Shown one piece after another: positions 6,345-31,264 of a stretch of 64,000 bases of DNA. The position numbers and the translations under genes are program-made. The DNA comes from Candidatus Saccharimonadota bacterium (GTDB taxonomy: Bacteria > Patescibacteriota > Saccharimonadia > Saccharimonadales > UBA4665). The notes under the pieces are model-generated. The model saw only the letters and a program-made list of their open reading frames with translations. It did not search any database and was not told the origin of the DNA. Location: contig JAQBRY010000004.1 of the NCBI GenBank assembly GCA_028286245.1, positions 62,001 through 126,000 of the forward strand. Reading direction: 5' to 3'. Position 1 is the first letter of the stretch. Each line of letters begins with the position of its first letter.

Positions 6345-6854
6345 CTAGAGAGCGGCTTCGAGGGCGGCCCACTCGGTAGTAGCATCGTCTTCGGGGACGT
6401 TAACGCTCACTTGGTCGCCGGGCTTGGCTTTGAAGTAGGTGACGCTGGCGAGGAGTACACGTAGGTTGCGGCCGTTAACATCCACAAAGTAGTGTCCGTT
6501 TTCGAGCTTGAGTGTGCCAACAACCTGTTTGCGAGGAATCGGTCCGATTTGCTTGTATAAAAAGGCACCGTCTTCGGCGATGGTCAGTTTGAGGATGTCG
6601 CCTTGGACCAACTTGGACTTGCTGGCGTAATTGGCGGGGACCGGGTAGGTTTTACCATCAGAGCCGACCATGTTTTGACCGTCAAAAACCCCTTCGATAA
6701 TTTTACCGAGGGTATCTTCGCGGACTACAGGTGCCATGGTATCATCGTCGCCGACTAAGCTAATGAGTAATTCAGTAGCGGCAGCTAAGCTGGTTTCAGC
6801 TTCCTGTATGAGTGCCCGGAGTCTTTTGACTTGTTTTTCTGGTACGTCTGGCAT
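6345..6854 (-). CDS. conserved hypothetical protein, coiled coil plus beta domain
   Basis: 169 residues. Residues 1-35 form a likely helix (KQVKRLRALIQEAETSLAAA); the rest is beta-rich with a segment reading GQNMVGSDGKTYPVP followed by KLVQGDILKLTI, which looks like a small OB/TRAM-type barrel, and a second repeat-like half ending near DQVSVNVPED. No catalytic motif or membrane helix. I recall similar proteins only from Patescibacteria, but I cannot give a function. The acidic C-terminus and barrel would fit nucleic-acid or protein binding; that is a guess. Confidence 0.75.
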   Translation of the reverse strand: MPDVPEKQVKRLRALIQEAETSLAAATELLISLVGDDDTMAPVVREDTLGKIIEGVFDGQNMVGSDGKTYPVPANYASKSKLVQGDILKLTIAEDGAFLYKQIGPIPRKQVVGTLKLENGHYFVDVNGRNLRVLLASVTYFKAKPGDQVSVNVPEDDATTEWAALEAAL

Positions 6855-7038: not shown

Positions 7039-8310
7039 TTATTGGGGTGTATCGCCAAAAGCTATCTGAGTAACAATATCAGTTCTTTCCGCTTGGTTCT
7101 TGCCCTGAAATAGACTATAAAGTATGCCTTTCTCCTCTGGCTCTAGTTCGGGTAGAGACACGCGTATGCGATCTGCTGATGTTCCAAGCTCTTTTCGTAA
7201 GGCCGTATTCTCTAAGGCTAACTTTGCGATTAAGAGCTCGTGTTCTATAAATAGCGTTGCATGTGCCTCACCATTGTTTCGTAAAGCCGCAATCTCTTCT
7301 CCCATTGCCTTAATTGATTGATTTGCGCCATCCACATCAACTTTTCCAATAGGATTGGACGGTTCGGTAGATTGTTTGCTGGGCTGTGGTCTTGATGGTC
7401 TTGCCGGAGGCAAAGTATTTGTCCAAGAGCCGGTTTCAATTACGGTAACAGCGGCTTCAGGTGTTGGTGCACTAGCCACAGCGCTAACTAACTGCTGTGC
7501 ATCAGCAGCGCTCATTTTACGTTGCAGAATCACTTTCGCTACAAGGTTCTGCTGTAAATACAGGTGAGGCAGTTGAGTCCCAATTACTTTTAAGTGTTGC
7601 GGAGACAGAGCAAAGTTTGCCCTGTTCGCCTTTGAAGCTCTTACTTCTCGAACTAGTTTCGGGTCCATTACTCCGGCAACAACTAAATTATTGTGCAGCT
7701 GAGAAGTGGTCATATTCCACTGTTGGCTTTTTGCTTTCGTCCACTGGGTAATTGCTCGTACTTCATTGGGGCTTAATCCAAGACGCGCACCGTTGTTAGA
7801 GTCTGACAGACCTAACATAAAACCTTGACTGACACTTAAGCCTTTTCTGTGCCAATCTGTCCTTGACCACGCTGCTTCAACCCAGTCTACGACTCGTGCA
7901 AATTGAACGCTTTTATGGGATGTTGCTGCTGTGATTCGGCGATCAAACGTTTCTTCAAGCGTTGAGTTTAAGCAGATACTTGCGTAAGCTTTCTGTTCAC
8001 CATTCTGATTGAGTGCCCCTGTACGATGAAACCCATCAATAATCAAAAACTTGGGCATGCGAGGGACATGAGCCAAAGTAATAGCCGAAACTTGGCCACT
8101 AGTGCCTTCTCCAGAGGTGTTTAATTGCTCCTTGCGCATTGCTTGCGCTAGCTCAGCAACATGAGCATGGTCTACGGGCACGTCTTCTGTAAGTATGAGA
8201 TCAAGTGTGACGTAAGCGTCCATGATCGTTCCGCCCTCACGCATTAATAAGGGCTCAACGCGAGCTAAGAGAATATCGCTTCCTGATTGTTCACCAAGGG
8301 GTACTGACAT
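7039..8310 (-). CDS. ParB/sulfiredoxin-fold protein with C-terminal coiled coil
   Basis: 423 residues. The N-terminal part carries a ParB-like nuclease/Srx signature: ILTEDVPVDHAHVAELAQAM, then FLIIDGFHRTGAL at about residues 88-100, the counterpart of the ParB GERRxRA/DGHHR box. A helical middle (about 150-290) could hold a helix-turn-helix. A Pro/Ser-rich linker (300-325) precedes a predicted coiled coil (330-372) and an acidic C-terminus. It is not a standard chromosome ParB: no ParA is adjacent. The gene lies 50 bp downstream of the FliA-like sigma gene, yet has its own promoter. Role in DNA binding or regulation is inference. Confidence 0.6.
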   Translation of the reverse strand: MSVPLGEQSGSDILLARVEPLLMREGGTIMDAYVTLDLILTEDVPVDHAHVAELAQAMRKEQLNTSGEGTSGQVSAITLAHVPRMPKFLIIDGFHRTGALNQNGEQKAYASICLNSTLEETFDRRITAATSHKSVQFARVVDWVEAAWSRTDWHRKGLSVSQGFMLGLSDSNNGARLGLSPNEVRAITQWTKAKSQQWNMTTSQLHNNLVVAGVMDPKLVREVRASKANRANFALSPQHLKVIGTQLPHLYLQQNLVAKVILQRKMSAADAQQLVSAVASAPTPEAAVTVIETGSWTNTLPPARPSRPQPSKQSTEPSNPIGKVDVDGANQSIKAMGEEIAALRNNGEAHATLFIEHELLIAKLALENTALRKELGTSADRIRVSLPELEPEEKGILYSLFQGKNQAERTDIVTQIAFGDTPQ

Positions 8311-27077: not shown

Positions 27078-27737
27078 TTAACGAATTGTAATATTACGAC
27101 GCGTCATATCAACTCGGCCAGGACCATTAGGAACCAGGTTGACCATGCCGGGCTTAGCCACACCGGCGCTCGCGTCATTAGAGCTTAAAATACCGAGTTC
27201 CCGCAGTTTGTGAATGGCGGCGTTTTGCTGGGCACCGTAAACGTGCTTACCGCTAATAACTAAGTAGTCTTCGCTGGGCGTGGGATTTTGCATGTAACTG
27301 ATAATTTTCTTGTAGGTATCGCGGTCCCATTGCACGGCGTATTTATCGTCGGCACGGCGGCGGTCGCGCTTCTGGGAGCGCAAGTAGGCGGTTTCGGTGT
27401 CAATCTGGAACCATACCACCACTGGCTGGGCATGGTGCTTGCGTGCAAACTCACGCAGGGCATGTCGTTGACTGGCGCGCAGGGCGTTTACGTCATAAAT
27501 AACGCTTAAACCAGCGCTCAAAAATTCTTCTGTCATGTAGTCCATGAGCTGGGTCACCACGTCGTTTTCTTGTTTATCGTGCCGCGGGGTTTCGAAGAGC
27601 TCGTTGCGTATACGATCACTTTGTACGTGCGCACACTGGATGTTTTCGGCGAGTTGCCGAGCAAAGTAGGTTTTTCCGGCGCCGGGGAAGCCATACAGCA
27701 TTAACAGGAACGGTTTGGAGGGATAAATTTTGGCCAT
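27078..27737 (-). CDS. P-loop kinase/ATPase of the polynucleotide-kinase/zeta type
   Basis: 219 residues. Walker A GFPGAGKTYFARQL near residue 14; VIYDVNALRASQRH and an Arg-rich lid segment RSQKRDRRRADDKY fit P-loop kinases such as polynucleotide kinase, zeta toxin or gluconate kinase. No antitoxin gene is adjacent, so a toxin role is unlikely. Substrate unknown. It precedes the metallopeptidase by 3 nt, one transcription unit. Confidence 0.75.
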   Translation of the reverse strand: MAKIYPSKPFLLMLYGFPGAGKTYFARQLAENIQCAHVQSDRIRNELFETPRHDKQENDVVTQLMDYMTEEFLSAGLSVIYDVNALRASQRHALREFARKHHAQPVVVWFQIDTETAYLRSQKRDRRRADDKYAVQWDRDTYKKIISYMQNPTPSEDYLVISGKHVYGAQQNAAIHKLRELGILSSNDASAGVAKPGMVNLVPNGPGRVDMTRRNITIR

Positions 27738-28015: not shown

Positions 28016-30529
28016 CTATGCGATTTGCTGTCGTTTGAGTTTGAGGCGCGGGACACCGCCGGTGTCGTAGTGGCGGGGGAATGCGGCGTCTTGTACTTCT
28101 ATATGCGCTACAAAGCGAGCGGCAAAGCGCCGTAGAAGTTCAACGATAAATACTTGGTCTTGGGCGTTGGCCGCTTCTTCGAGAGCCGGTGACACGTCCA
28201 TAAGGCGCATTTTATCGATTACTTCGAGTACTCGGCCATATTTTCGTGGCATCACTGTGGCGCTAAAAGGCTCGTCGATCCGTTTTAGGTAGGGCCGGAT
28301 GGTGACGAGACTGCCGTCTAGAGCCACAAATACACGATGCTTGTGATATTGCTTGGGCACGAATGAGCCATATACAAAAAACTCTAATCCTTTAACATCA
28401 CCCGCAGCAGCCCGCCGGCTGGCATTGTTTAACTGTGCGCCCACAGCGGCGAGTCTGTGGTAGACTGACTCACCGTCAATAGTGTGTCCAAGAATATCGG
28501 TTACGGCGTCCATAAAATCGTCTGGAGTCGGCTTGATCGCCTCAAACGCTGACTGAGCAATCAGCTTTTCTCTGATCAGGGTGTGCACCTTGGCCACGCC
28601 CTGCAAATCTTTGCCGGCGCCTGGCCCAACCTTGCCGCCAATAGTTAGTGCACTATAGCCCCGCATTCGGTATCCCGCCTCGCTCCCGCAGGAGCCGGCT
28701 ACATACATCTTGGCATTACCACCCATCAGTGTGCCGGCGAGATCACCGACATTTCCCACTACCAGCAACTCGGCGCCATTACCCATGTATTCGCCGGCTC
28801 TGTCACCGAGGTTGCCAATAACCTGTAGCCTACCGTATCCAAAACCACTTGCAAAATGATTGAGTTCCCCGTCTAGTACGGCTGGTATAGTAAGTACAAT
28901 TTCTTGCTTGGCGTTTAACGCACAATCTGCCAGTAGGCGAGAAAAGACGAGGCTAAACACATCTGTATTAAAGTTTTCTATCCCACCCACGCTCTCTATG
29001 AGCGGCGCAATATCATTGTGCCACAGCTTGGTAATGGGCAGTACGCCAATGGTTCGTAATCCGGAATCTCGATAAATCTTTCTGATAGCAGCGTTTACCG
29101 TACCTAAAGAGCTCATGTGCTGGCCGCTATATTTAAACAGTGCGGCGCTTTCTCTAAATGCGTTACTGAGGGCAGCATAGTCAAGTTCCATATGCTGGGC
29201 TTCTTTGGCTGCCTTAATCTCTGCCGCTAGCAGTTCCTGGCGTGCTGTCCGTGGGGGTGTGGGGACGGCCCGCGCTTTCTCTATGGCGCTCCGGCGCTGG
29301 TTGCGAGCGGCTATAATTAGGTGCTCGCTTATACCACTCCTATGCCTGTTTTCACCATTGGTTTCGGGCTCAATGAGCAGCGCCAGCTTTTTGCTTGCCG
29401 GCGATGCTAAAATTCGCTCCAAAGTTTTTGCCTGAATCTGCCGCACGCGCTCGCGTGTTATGCCCATTACCTGCCCAACTTGTTCTAGCGTTTGCGGTGC
29501 CTCGGTGCCAATTCCGTAACGGAGCCGCAATATTTCTGCTTCACGGTGCGGGAGGCTGGCTAAAACCTCCTCAATGCTGTCAATGATCTCATCCGTAATA
29601 ATACGTTTACCCATATCGTCATCCGTCGCCAGCAGATCGTGCAAGCGTAGTACCTCCTCATTATCCTGGTCGTCATACTGTGCATCAGGATCTTGCTCGT
29701 ATCTTGCCGCAAAAGGACTAAAGCTATCCAAAGGTACAGTTTGGTGGCTGCGATCAAGGGCCCGCAGAGTCGTAACATGCCCTAGCGGTTTGCCTAGATC
29801 TGCCGCGATAGCCTCATCGGTAACGTTATCGTGGCCCTTTTTGGCGGCCAGCCATTCTTCGCTGCGGCGCAGGGCTCTTTGGTCATCAGCAAATTTATAG
29901 GGATAGCGGGCTCCCGATGCTAAGCCGTAATTATAAATACCCTTTACAAGCCTGCTCTCCACTCTGTAGGTGGCATAGGTAGAAAAGCGGATATATTCAC
30001 CGTTACTTTGTTTAATCGGCATAAAGGTCTTAACCGCTTGCAGGAGGCCGATGGCTGCTTCCTGTACCCTATCGGCCAGCGGCATTGGCGATCCGGAAAA
30101 CGTGGTTAGGTCACCATGGATGGCTCCCGAATAGACTGCCTTACCCTTATCGCCTTCTGATATCTGAGCCGGCAGATTCATGGTCATCCGGGCCATCCAG
30201 CTCACCAGTCGCAAATTTCTTTCAAAAAACTCCTGTGTGGCCTTTTCGCCAGCTACAATAACGTCCGTGAGGCTTGGATCGGCTATGCCGCTCTGTACTT
30301 GGACCAGCTCAGATGCTCGCTGGCCCGCCTGAATGGCTGTAGCATAGGCAACTTCTTCTTCTGGCGTACAAAGCTCGGTGCCACGAATGCGATTAGTAAA
30401 ATCAGTGATGGCATGGGACGTGCTATCGGGCAGGCTGGCATAGTACGCATCAAATAAGCTATCCGGGTTGGTAAGAACTACCGGCAGCATACGGTGGTCA
30501 GCGTCGAGGCTATCACGAGACGGTGGCAT
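28016..30529 (-). CDS. sigma-70 factor fused to a GXGXG beta-helix domain
   Basis: 837 residues, about twice a normal group-2 sigma factor. Residues 40-380 are a sigma factor: region 1.2-like ELCTPEEEVAYATAIQAG, region 2 (FFERNLRLVSWMARM, QEAAIGLLQAVKTF, FSTYATYRVESRLVKGIY), region 3, and region 4 (LASLPHREAEILRLRYGIG, VGQVMGITRERVRQIQ). A helical linker (400-545) follows. Residues 566-645 hold four 20-residue repeats of the type VIGNLGDRAGEYMGNG / VVGNVGDLAGTLMGG / VAGSCGSEAGYRMRG / IGGKVGPGAGKDLQG, the GXGXG pattern of the glutamate synthase alpha-subunit C-terminus and FwdC. About 190 unassigned residues end the protein. The reading frame is continuous, with its own promoter, so this is a real fusion. 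Target promoters and the role of the beta-helix are unknown. Confidence 0.92.
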   Translation of the reverse strand: MPPSRDSLDADHRMLPVVLTNPDSLFDAYYASLPDSTSHAITDFTNRIRGTELCTPEEEVAYATAIQAGQRASELVQVQSGIADPSLTDVIVAGEKATQEFFERNLRLVSWMARMTMNLPAQISEGDKGKAVYSGAIHGDLTTFSGSPMPLADRVQEAAIGLLQAVKTFMPIKQSNGEYIRFSTYATYRVESRLVKGIYNYGLASGARYPYKFADDQRALRRSEEWLAAKKGHDNVTDEAIAADLGKPLGHVTTLRALDRSHQTVPLDSFSPFAARYEQDPDAQYDDQDNEEVLRLHDLLATDDDMGKRIITDEIIDSIEEVLASLPHREAEILRLRYGIGTEAPQTLEQVGQVMGITRERVRQIQAKTLERILASPASKKLALLIEPETNGENRHRSGISEHLIIAARNQRRSAIEKARAVPTPPRTARQELLAAEIKAAKEAQHMELDYAALSNAFRESAALFKYSGQHMSSLGTVNAAIRKIYRDSGLRTIGVLPITKLWHNDIAPLIESVGGIENFNTDVFSLVFSRLLADCALNAKQEIVLTIPAVLDGELNHFASGFGYGRLQVIGNLGDRAGEYMGNGAELLVVGNVGDLAGTLMGGNAKMYVAGSCGSEAGYRMRGYSALTIGGKVGPGAGKDLQGVAKVHTLIREKLIAQSAFEAIKPTPDDFMDAVTDILGHTIDGESVYHRLAAVGAQLNNASRRAAAGDVKGLEFFVYGSFVPKQYHKHRVFVALDGSLVTIRPYLKRIDEPFSATVMPRKYGRVLEVIDKMRLMDVSPALEEAANAQDQVFIVELLRRFAARFVAHIEVQDAAFPRHYDTGGVPRLKLKRQQIA

Positions 30530-30535
30530 CTCTTT

Positions 30536-30564
30536 ATTGTACCATAAAAGTAGTCGTTTTACAA
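30536..30564 (-). promoter_or_regulatory. promoter of the sigma-GXGXG gene, leaderless
   Basis: Minus strand TTGTAA (30559-30564), 17-bp spacer, TACAAT (30536-30541), 6 nt to ATG 30529. Confidence 0.7.
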
Positions 30565-30614: not shown

Positions 30615-30643
30615 TTGTGGCCGATGCTCGGGCGTCGTATACT
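30615..30643 (+). promoter_or_regulatory. promoter, leaderless arrangement
   Basis: TTGTGG (30615-30620), 17-bp spacer, TATACT (30638-30643), 6 nt to ATG 30650. Divergent from the sigma-GXGXG promoter. Confidence 0.7.
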
Positions 30644-30649
30644 ACGCTC

Positions 30650-31264
30650 ATGCGACTGTCTACGCTGACTCAAAAAAATAATTCCGAAACAACCTGGCAT
30701 GTGGCCGCAGCACTCGTCATCGCCGTTGGACTACAACTTGTTCTTAAAGATAATCTGGCCTTTGGATCTAAGTATGCCCTGGCAGCACTCGAGGGCGTTT
30801 TACTAGTAATAGTACTTATCCCGAGTCTGCACGCCTCGGCTCGCCGGTTGATTGCTATCTTGCTGGTAGGATTTATTACTGTTGCCAATGTATTTTCTCT
30901 GGCTCTTGTTATTAAGGCGTTGTTTAGCAGCGGCGCTGTCGACGGCCGGCAGCTGCTCATTAGCAGTGTGGCCATTTATCTAACAAACATTATCGTGTTC
31001 GGCATTCTGTACTGGGAGCTGGATAATACCAAGCCTGATCAGGATGATTTTGCGTTTCCACAAGCGAGCCTAGCCGGGCAATCAGCCTGGCGCCCGACGT
31101 TTTTTGATTACTTGTACGTATCTATTACCAATGCAACCGCTTTTAGCCCTACCGACACACTGCCGCTGACGCACCGGGCAAAACTCCTCATGACCATTCA
31201 GTCTATCACCTCGCTAGTCACAGTCGCCCTGGTGGCGGCGCGGGCCGTAAATATTTTAAGCTAG
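30650..31264 (+). CDS. DUF1345-like integral membrane protein
   Basis: 204 residues, about six membrane helices. The C-terminal block (FFDYLYVSITNATAFSPTDT, then HRAKLLMTIQSITSLVTVAL) matches the DUF1345 pattern, which also loosely recalls two-helix potassium channels with a pore-like loop. The start is placed at ATG 30650 because the -10 box lies 6 nt upstream; an upstream in-frame ATG falls before the transcription start. Function unknown. Confidence 0.7.
   Translation: MRLSTLTQKNNSETTWHVAAALVIAVGLQLVLKDNLAFGSKYALAALEGVLLVIVLIPSLHASARRLIAILLVGFITVANVFSLALVIKALFSSGAVDGRQLLISSVAIYLTNIIVFGILYWELDNTKPDQDDFAFPQASLAGQSAWRPTFFDYLYVSITNATAFSPTDTLPLTHRAKLLMTIQSITSLVTVALVAARAVNILS

Follow-up and report, generated by a model that had tools for sequence, protein, structure and literature searches.

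A sigma-70-type factor fused to a predicted GXGXG-type β-helix in Saccharibacteria

Results and discussion

A single open reading frame of 837 codons, lying on the minus strand at 28016..30529 of a 64,000-nucleotide stretch of a Saccharibacteria genome (contig JAQBRY010000004.1, positions 62,001 to 126,000; hereinafter the window), encodes a sigma-70-type factor followed by a helical linker, a capped GXGXG β-helix and a further C-terminal region. The frame, the sigma regions, the fold with its cap, and the preservation of this arrangement in a second family of the same order are observed here, and the fusion is a real but rare protein design. On balance we consider it probable, if only moderately so, that the protein is an alternative sigma factor outside the extracytoplasmic function (ECF) type, in which the β-helix behind region 4 serves as a rigid docking and/or autoregulatory module. 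The source genome comprises 1.13 Mb in 4 contigs. The continuity of the frame proposed in the initial annotation was confirmed, with no internal stop codon.

The sigma factor portion

Sigma homology spans approximately residues 40-385 and represents a divergent, full-length version of the sigma-70 type. Region 4 (residues 322-373; 29411..29566, minus strand) is strongly recovered by the Pfam model PF04545 (E 1.6e-16, 60 bits vs a cut-off of 24.1). Region 1.2 (residues 46-71; 30317..30394, minus strand; PF00140, E 0.0012, 19.2 bits vs 22) and the region 2 core (residues 141-189; 29963..30109, minus strand; PF04542, E 0.0031, 17.7 bits vs 24) both fall just under their cut-offs. A phmmer search against the PDB retrieved Mycobacterium tuberculosis SigB as the best match (E 4e-24), with an alignment that runs from region 1.2 to region 4 over residues 40-114 and 144-373 and includes the region-3 spacing. 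This is in line with the earlier description of a complete sigma factor. The helix-turn-helix of region 4, region 1.2 and the region-3 spacing are traits of the non-ECF sigma-70 factors, and all are present. Region 2 also aligns in full to SigB, though it is under the Pfam cut-off and its -10-reading residues are altered.

The nature of this alteration is apparent when the protein is aligned to the RpoD of the same genome and to the second fusion protein described below (G153). Region 4.2 retains TRERVRQI, the -35-recognition motif. In region 2.3/2.4 the RpoD segment FSTYATWWIRQAITR is replaced by FSTYATYRVESRLVK, and the Q and T with which RpoD reads the -10 element become S and V; just after the region 2 core the protein has FSTYATYR in place of FSTYATWW. 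The roles of this WW pair, and of the Q and T, are those known from Escherichia coli sigma-70. Aromatic residues at other melting positions are kept in the window protein, as is the Q-E core-binding pair (DRVQE). Approximately 28 extra residues are found between regions 2.1 and 2.2 of the window protein, and approximately 38 in the G153 protein. The altered region 2 suggests either recognition of a non-standard -10 element or a loss of promoter opening.

A profile of the sigma part, run against 295 genomes of the order, scored 756.9 bits with the window protein and 655.6 bits with the G153 protein, both of which are members of the model by construction; all other sigma matches in these genomes are RpoD-like and score about 100 bits or less. 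Phage and plasmid collections yielded ordinary sigma matches only. As the window genome also encodes a normal RpoD of 396 residues and a second sigma factor of 570 residues beside polA, the fusion factor is not the housekeeping one.

The capped β-helix

The C-terminal half of the protein contains four exact 20-residue units at residues 564-643, which, with a last strand at 647-650, make up the predicted right-handed β-helix (28580..28840, minus strand). The initial annotation had recognized four such repeats but placed them two residues further on, at 566-645. Over residues 560-650, self-similarity at a lag of 20 reaches 94, whereas none of 400 shuffles exceeds 37. The helix is preceded by a cap (28889..29044, minus strand) formed by helices 496-513 and 522-535 and a strand at 543-547, which is common to the G153 protein and to a set of stand-alone proteins (see below).

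The check originally proposed for this assignment, a search of residues 545-660 with the GXGXG model PF01493, fails (E 1.1, 9.2 bits, below the cut-off of 32.5), and the G153 copy reaches just 20.2 bits. More sensitive tests, however, succeed. The FwdC model of NCBIfam (TIGR03122) matches the window protein at 6e-6 (25.7 bits) and the G153 protein at 3.4e-18 (65.8 bits), neither reaching the equivalog cut-off of 130.65 bits. In searches of the PDB, residues 545-660 as a single sequence find FwdC 8rja_C as the best match (E 0.0055), and a two-sequence profile built from the window and G153 segments recovers four FwdC chains, all with E values of 4e-5 or lower (9sw6_K, 4.3e-9). A refutation based on PF01493 alone would therefore have misled.

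Structure prediction for the whole protein without an alignment gave a predicted local distance difference test score (pLDDT) of 38 and is usable only for the occurrence of strands at a 20-residue spacing. In contrast, AlphaFold, given residues 480-665 and, as a second row, the G153 segment, returned a β-helix with a mean pLDDT of 78 and a predicted template modelling score of 0.78, most blocks of the helix being at about 90 or more. Its predicted strands lie at 566-571, 586-591, 607-610, 627-630 and 647-650. In comparisons of this model using VIA-align, FwdC (8rja_C) ranks first (Z 13.2, 3.2 Å over 139 residues), followed by GltB (2vdc_A; Z 12.7, 2.2 Å over 120 residues). Foldseek scores for the same model are weak (probability 0.66 at best), and hence the structural claim rests on VIA-align and the sequence profiles. 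A viral fold library gave no significant match. Taken together, the TIGR03122 match, the FwdC matches in the PDB and the predicted structure uphold the initial GXGXG assignment, and the prediction that residues 564-643 form a right-handed β-helix of the GltB/FwdC type is well supported.

Two further segments complete the protein. The linker between the sigma part and the cap (residues ~386-495; 29045..29374, minus strand) has no Pfam match and appears as helices in the low-confidence whole-protein model. The 187 residues at the end (651-837; 28019..28579, minus strand) match nothing in Pfam, NCBIfam or the PDB, and are absent from the G153 and stand-alone proteins.

A second fusion and phyletic distribution

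A search for the same fusion in other Saccharibacteria, as originally recommended, recovered it in a genome from another family of the order, "Candidatus Saccharibacteria bacterium isolate CullarsAll.DT.39" (contig JARIHL010000033.1; G153), with the C-terminal part matching at E 3.5e-15. Here the sigma part is of the same subtype and continues in frame into the same cap and helix, and the gene is split by an insertion sequence. The sigma parts of the two proteins are 27% identical and the helix parts 32%, indicating that the two domains have stayed together over a long divergence. The contig carries, in order, genes that we take from their translations to be fusA, tuf and rpsJ, followed by the N-terminal half of the sigma factor and the insertion sequence; beyond it, region 4.2 is followed by the linker, the cap and six or more coils, and next come three further genes, ahead of rplC, rplD, rplW and rplB. 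The insertion sequence is 923 bp long (L019:6690-7612), contains one transposase frame, ends in perfect 19-base inverted repeats (6690-6708 and 7594-7612) and is flanked on both sides by a 6-base target duplication, GGTATG. Apart from this interruption both halves of the gene are open, and they join within region 4; the gene was thus whole until recently. The segment between rpsJ and rplC (L019:2700-8686) comprises the sigma fusion, the insertion sequence, a secreted-looking protein, a small membrane protein and an L,D-transpeptidase-like gene, and its insertion breaks the usual order of the S10 operon.

The chance that an assembly error joined two genes in the window, raised in the initial annotation, is very slight, and we give it practically no weight: G+C content, both overall and at third codon positions, is uniform along the frame, and an independent genome of another family has the same in-frame fusion.

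The genome samples used for the phyletic survey overlap at the levels of genus, family, order and phylum, and their counts are not additive. The fusion is rare: two species carry it among the samples, the largest of which has 393 genomes, and none of the five other genomes of the same genus does. Within the family (93 genomes) the C-terminal part occurs only in the window genome and in a stand-alone repeat protein of 364 residues with approximately 11-12 coils and no Pfam family match (G034, L017:769-1863). The order sample (393 genomes) adds G153 and a 208-residue stand-alone protein (G174, L050:1444-2070), and the phylum sample (380 genomes) two further stand-alone proteins of 297 (G499, L026:1036-1929) and 212 residues (G541, L027:1408-2046). 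Thus, four other Patescibacteria encode the cap and helix, with approximately 2 to 12 coils, and no sigma part. The two fusion proteins and these four are alignable from the end of the cap into the first coils, the cap being only weakly conserved between the most distant ones. The window protein has no close relatives among the GTDB and IMG/VR contigs searched; a two-row profile recovered the G153 contig alone from the same sets, and nothing viral.

Functional implications

Under the interpretation that we favor, the protein would act as an alternative sigma factor outside the ECF type, bind core RNA polymerase, and read a near-standard -35 and a non-standard -10 element. The β-helix, as a built-in module for docking or autoregulation, would set the availability of the factor, either through a partner or by packing back against its regions 2 and 4. 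An interaction module would be expected to occur also on its own, as the cap and helix do in four Patescibacteria. Among ECF sigma factors, at least 26 groups have terminal extensions that are predicted to be regulatory; extensions of ECF factors work through a change of conformation, the docking of a partner, or proteolysis (PMC8999054). More tentatively, the two fusion proteins might represent a new class of non-ECF sigma factors in Saccharibacteria, controlled by a GltB/FwdC-type β-helix and reading a non-standard -10 element, a proposal that we regard as possible. Three points weigh against our interpretation: the changes in region 2 could mean that promoter opening has been lost, no neighbor gene conserved at both fusion loci points to a partner, and the interruption of the G153 copy implies that in that genome, at least, the gene can be dispensed with.

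The first of these points leads to a different view, namely that the protein derives from a sigma factor but no longer acts as one, and that it sequesters core polymerase, or competes for it, but opens no promoters. The lost WW pair and -10-reading residues, along with the sub-threshold Pfam score of region 2, are in its favor. On the other hand, the core-binding pair and aromatics at other melting positions are kept in the window protein, region 4.2 is intact, and the WW pair is absent from many alternative sigma factors; we consider this view rather unlikely. The initial annotation had, among other options, suggested that the helix might recognize a small molecule and thereby tie promoter choice to metabolism. 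This is unsupported, and in our estimation also unlikely: the GXGXG helix of FwdC and GltB plays a structural role and does not form the substrate site, which makes metabolite sensing less likely, and no protein of the window genome reaches the GXGXG Pfam model. Docking and oligomerization, both also named in the initial annotation, or cis-regulation are better options than a response to ligands or metabolic state.

Oligomerization in the manner of bactofilins, by which the factor would be stored in an inactive assembly, draws on the presence of the bactofilin BacA among the VIA-align matches (Z 6.3) and on the tendency of β-helices to stack end to end. However, that Z score lies within the range of a common arrangement, and the helical cap at one end and the 187-residue region at the other would hinder stacking, making such storage quite improbable. 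Finally, the gene might be a rare, mobile and nearly neutral one with no steady role, as might be read from its presence in just two species, its absence from the congeneric genomes, and the position of the interrupted G153 copy amid ribosomal protein genes. Yet both copies are otherwise open, the cap and the glycine pattern are conserved, and none of the ten nearest window neighbors tested is a mobile-element gene; accordingly, we give this explanation little credence.

Sigma factors with an added C-terminal domain are already known; what is new is a full-length sigma-70-type factor with a GXGXG-type β-helix. In keeping with the initial annotation, which knew of no sigma factor with this domain, the literature collection searched contained no relevant paper that combines sigma factors with GXGXG (in the sense of the domain), FwdC or β-helices. 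Cis-regulated sigma factors are known mainly among the ECF factors, and a full-length version with a metabolic-enzyme β-helix would widen the principle beyond them. It would also offer a handle on transcription control in Saccharibacteria, which have reduced genomes with few regulators and little-studied promoters. Furthermore, Patescibacteria possess the GXGXG helix, usually regarded as a part of enzymes, as an independent module with a cap.

Genomic context

An extended -10 promoter-like site, a consensus match only, precedes the sigma gene (30536..30564, minus strand; TTGTAA, a spacer of 17 nt, and TACAAT with TG before it). Its extended -10 element, TATGGTACAAT, ends 7 nt upstream of the ATG, so that the message may be leaderless or nearly so; the scan around the gene gave 5 matches against 3.1 expected in the scanned region. 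The initial annotation had placed the promoter of the divergent gene (30617-31264; a weak DUF1345 match, E 1.9e-4, under the cut-off) about 50 bp away. This was not borne out: the scan of the 87-base intergenic gap found no promoter match for that gene, and the site in the gap fits the sigma gene only. Directly downstream on the same strand is an AAA_33/zeta-toxin-like kinase (27078-27737), and the nearest neighbors further include a YgjP peptidase, a histidine kinase and the DUF1345-like protein. The two fusion loci have no neighborhood in common; the only other protein that they share is ribosomal and lies 33 kb away in the window.

Sigma region 4 is also seen in two other architectures in this genome. 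It forms the start of a 346-residue protein whose middle-to-end portion carries a HARE-HTH domain (L004:1456-2496, C1:110312 region), and similar region-4 matches occur in all five congeneric genomes. A 946-codon frame on the minus strand of L005 (C4:264671-267913) combines an SWI2/SNF2- and ResIII-type helicase with sigma-70 region 4 and a C-terminal region; it is matched at E ≤1e-30 in one of 92 other genomes of the family, over the helicase part only.

Comparison with known systems

The window protein shares regions 1.2 and 4 and the region-3 spacing with sigma factors of the RpoD/SigA/SigB/RpoS type and aligns with them in region 2, but adds the insert between regions 2.1 and 2.2, changed -10-reading residues and a C-terminal extension of 450 residues. 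The top NCBIfam match of its sigma part is MzaA, the sigma factor of the MZA anti-phage system (NF041931), at 113 bits against a cut-off of 800 and over regions 2-4 only; no MZA genes are present among the window neighbors tested. ECF factors with a C-terminal extension likewise carry an added domain proposed to regulate in cis or by docking, but they consist of regions 2 and 4 only, whereas the window protein has region 1.2, the region-3 spacing and a different added fold. The C-terminal GXGXG domain of GltB, the large subunit of glutamate synthase (PF01493), has the fold predicted for the window helix, but the window protein lacks the synthase domains and its sequence is under the Pfam cut-off. 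FwdC, subunit C of formylmethanofuran dehydrogenase (TIGR03122; 8rja_C, 5t5i_C, 9sw6_K), is alike in its 20-residue GXGXG coils, and likewise has a right-handed β-helix with a helical and strand cap. However, FwdC forms a separate subunit within a metabolic complex, whereas in the window protein four such coils lie behind a sigma factor.
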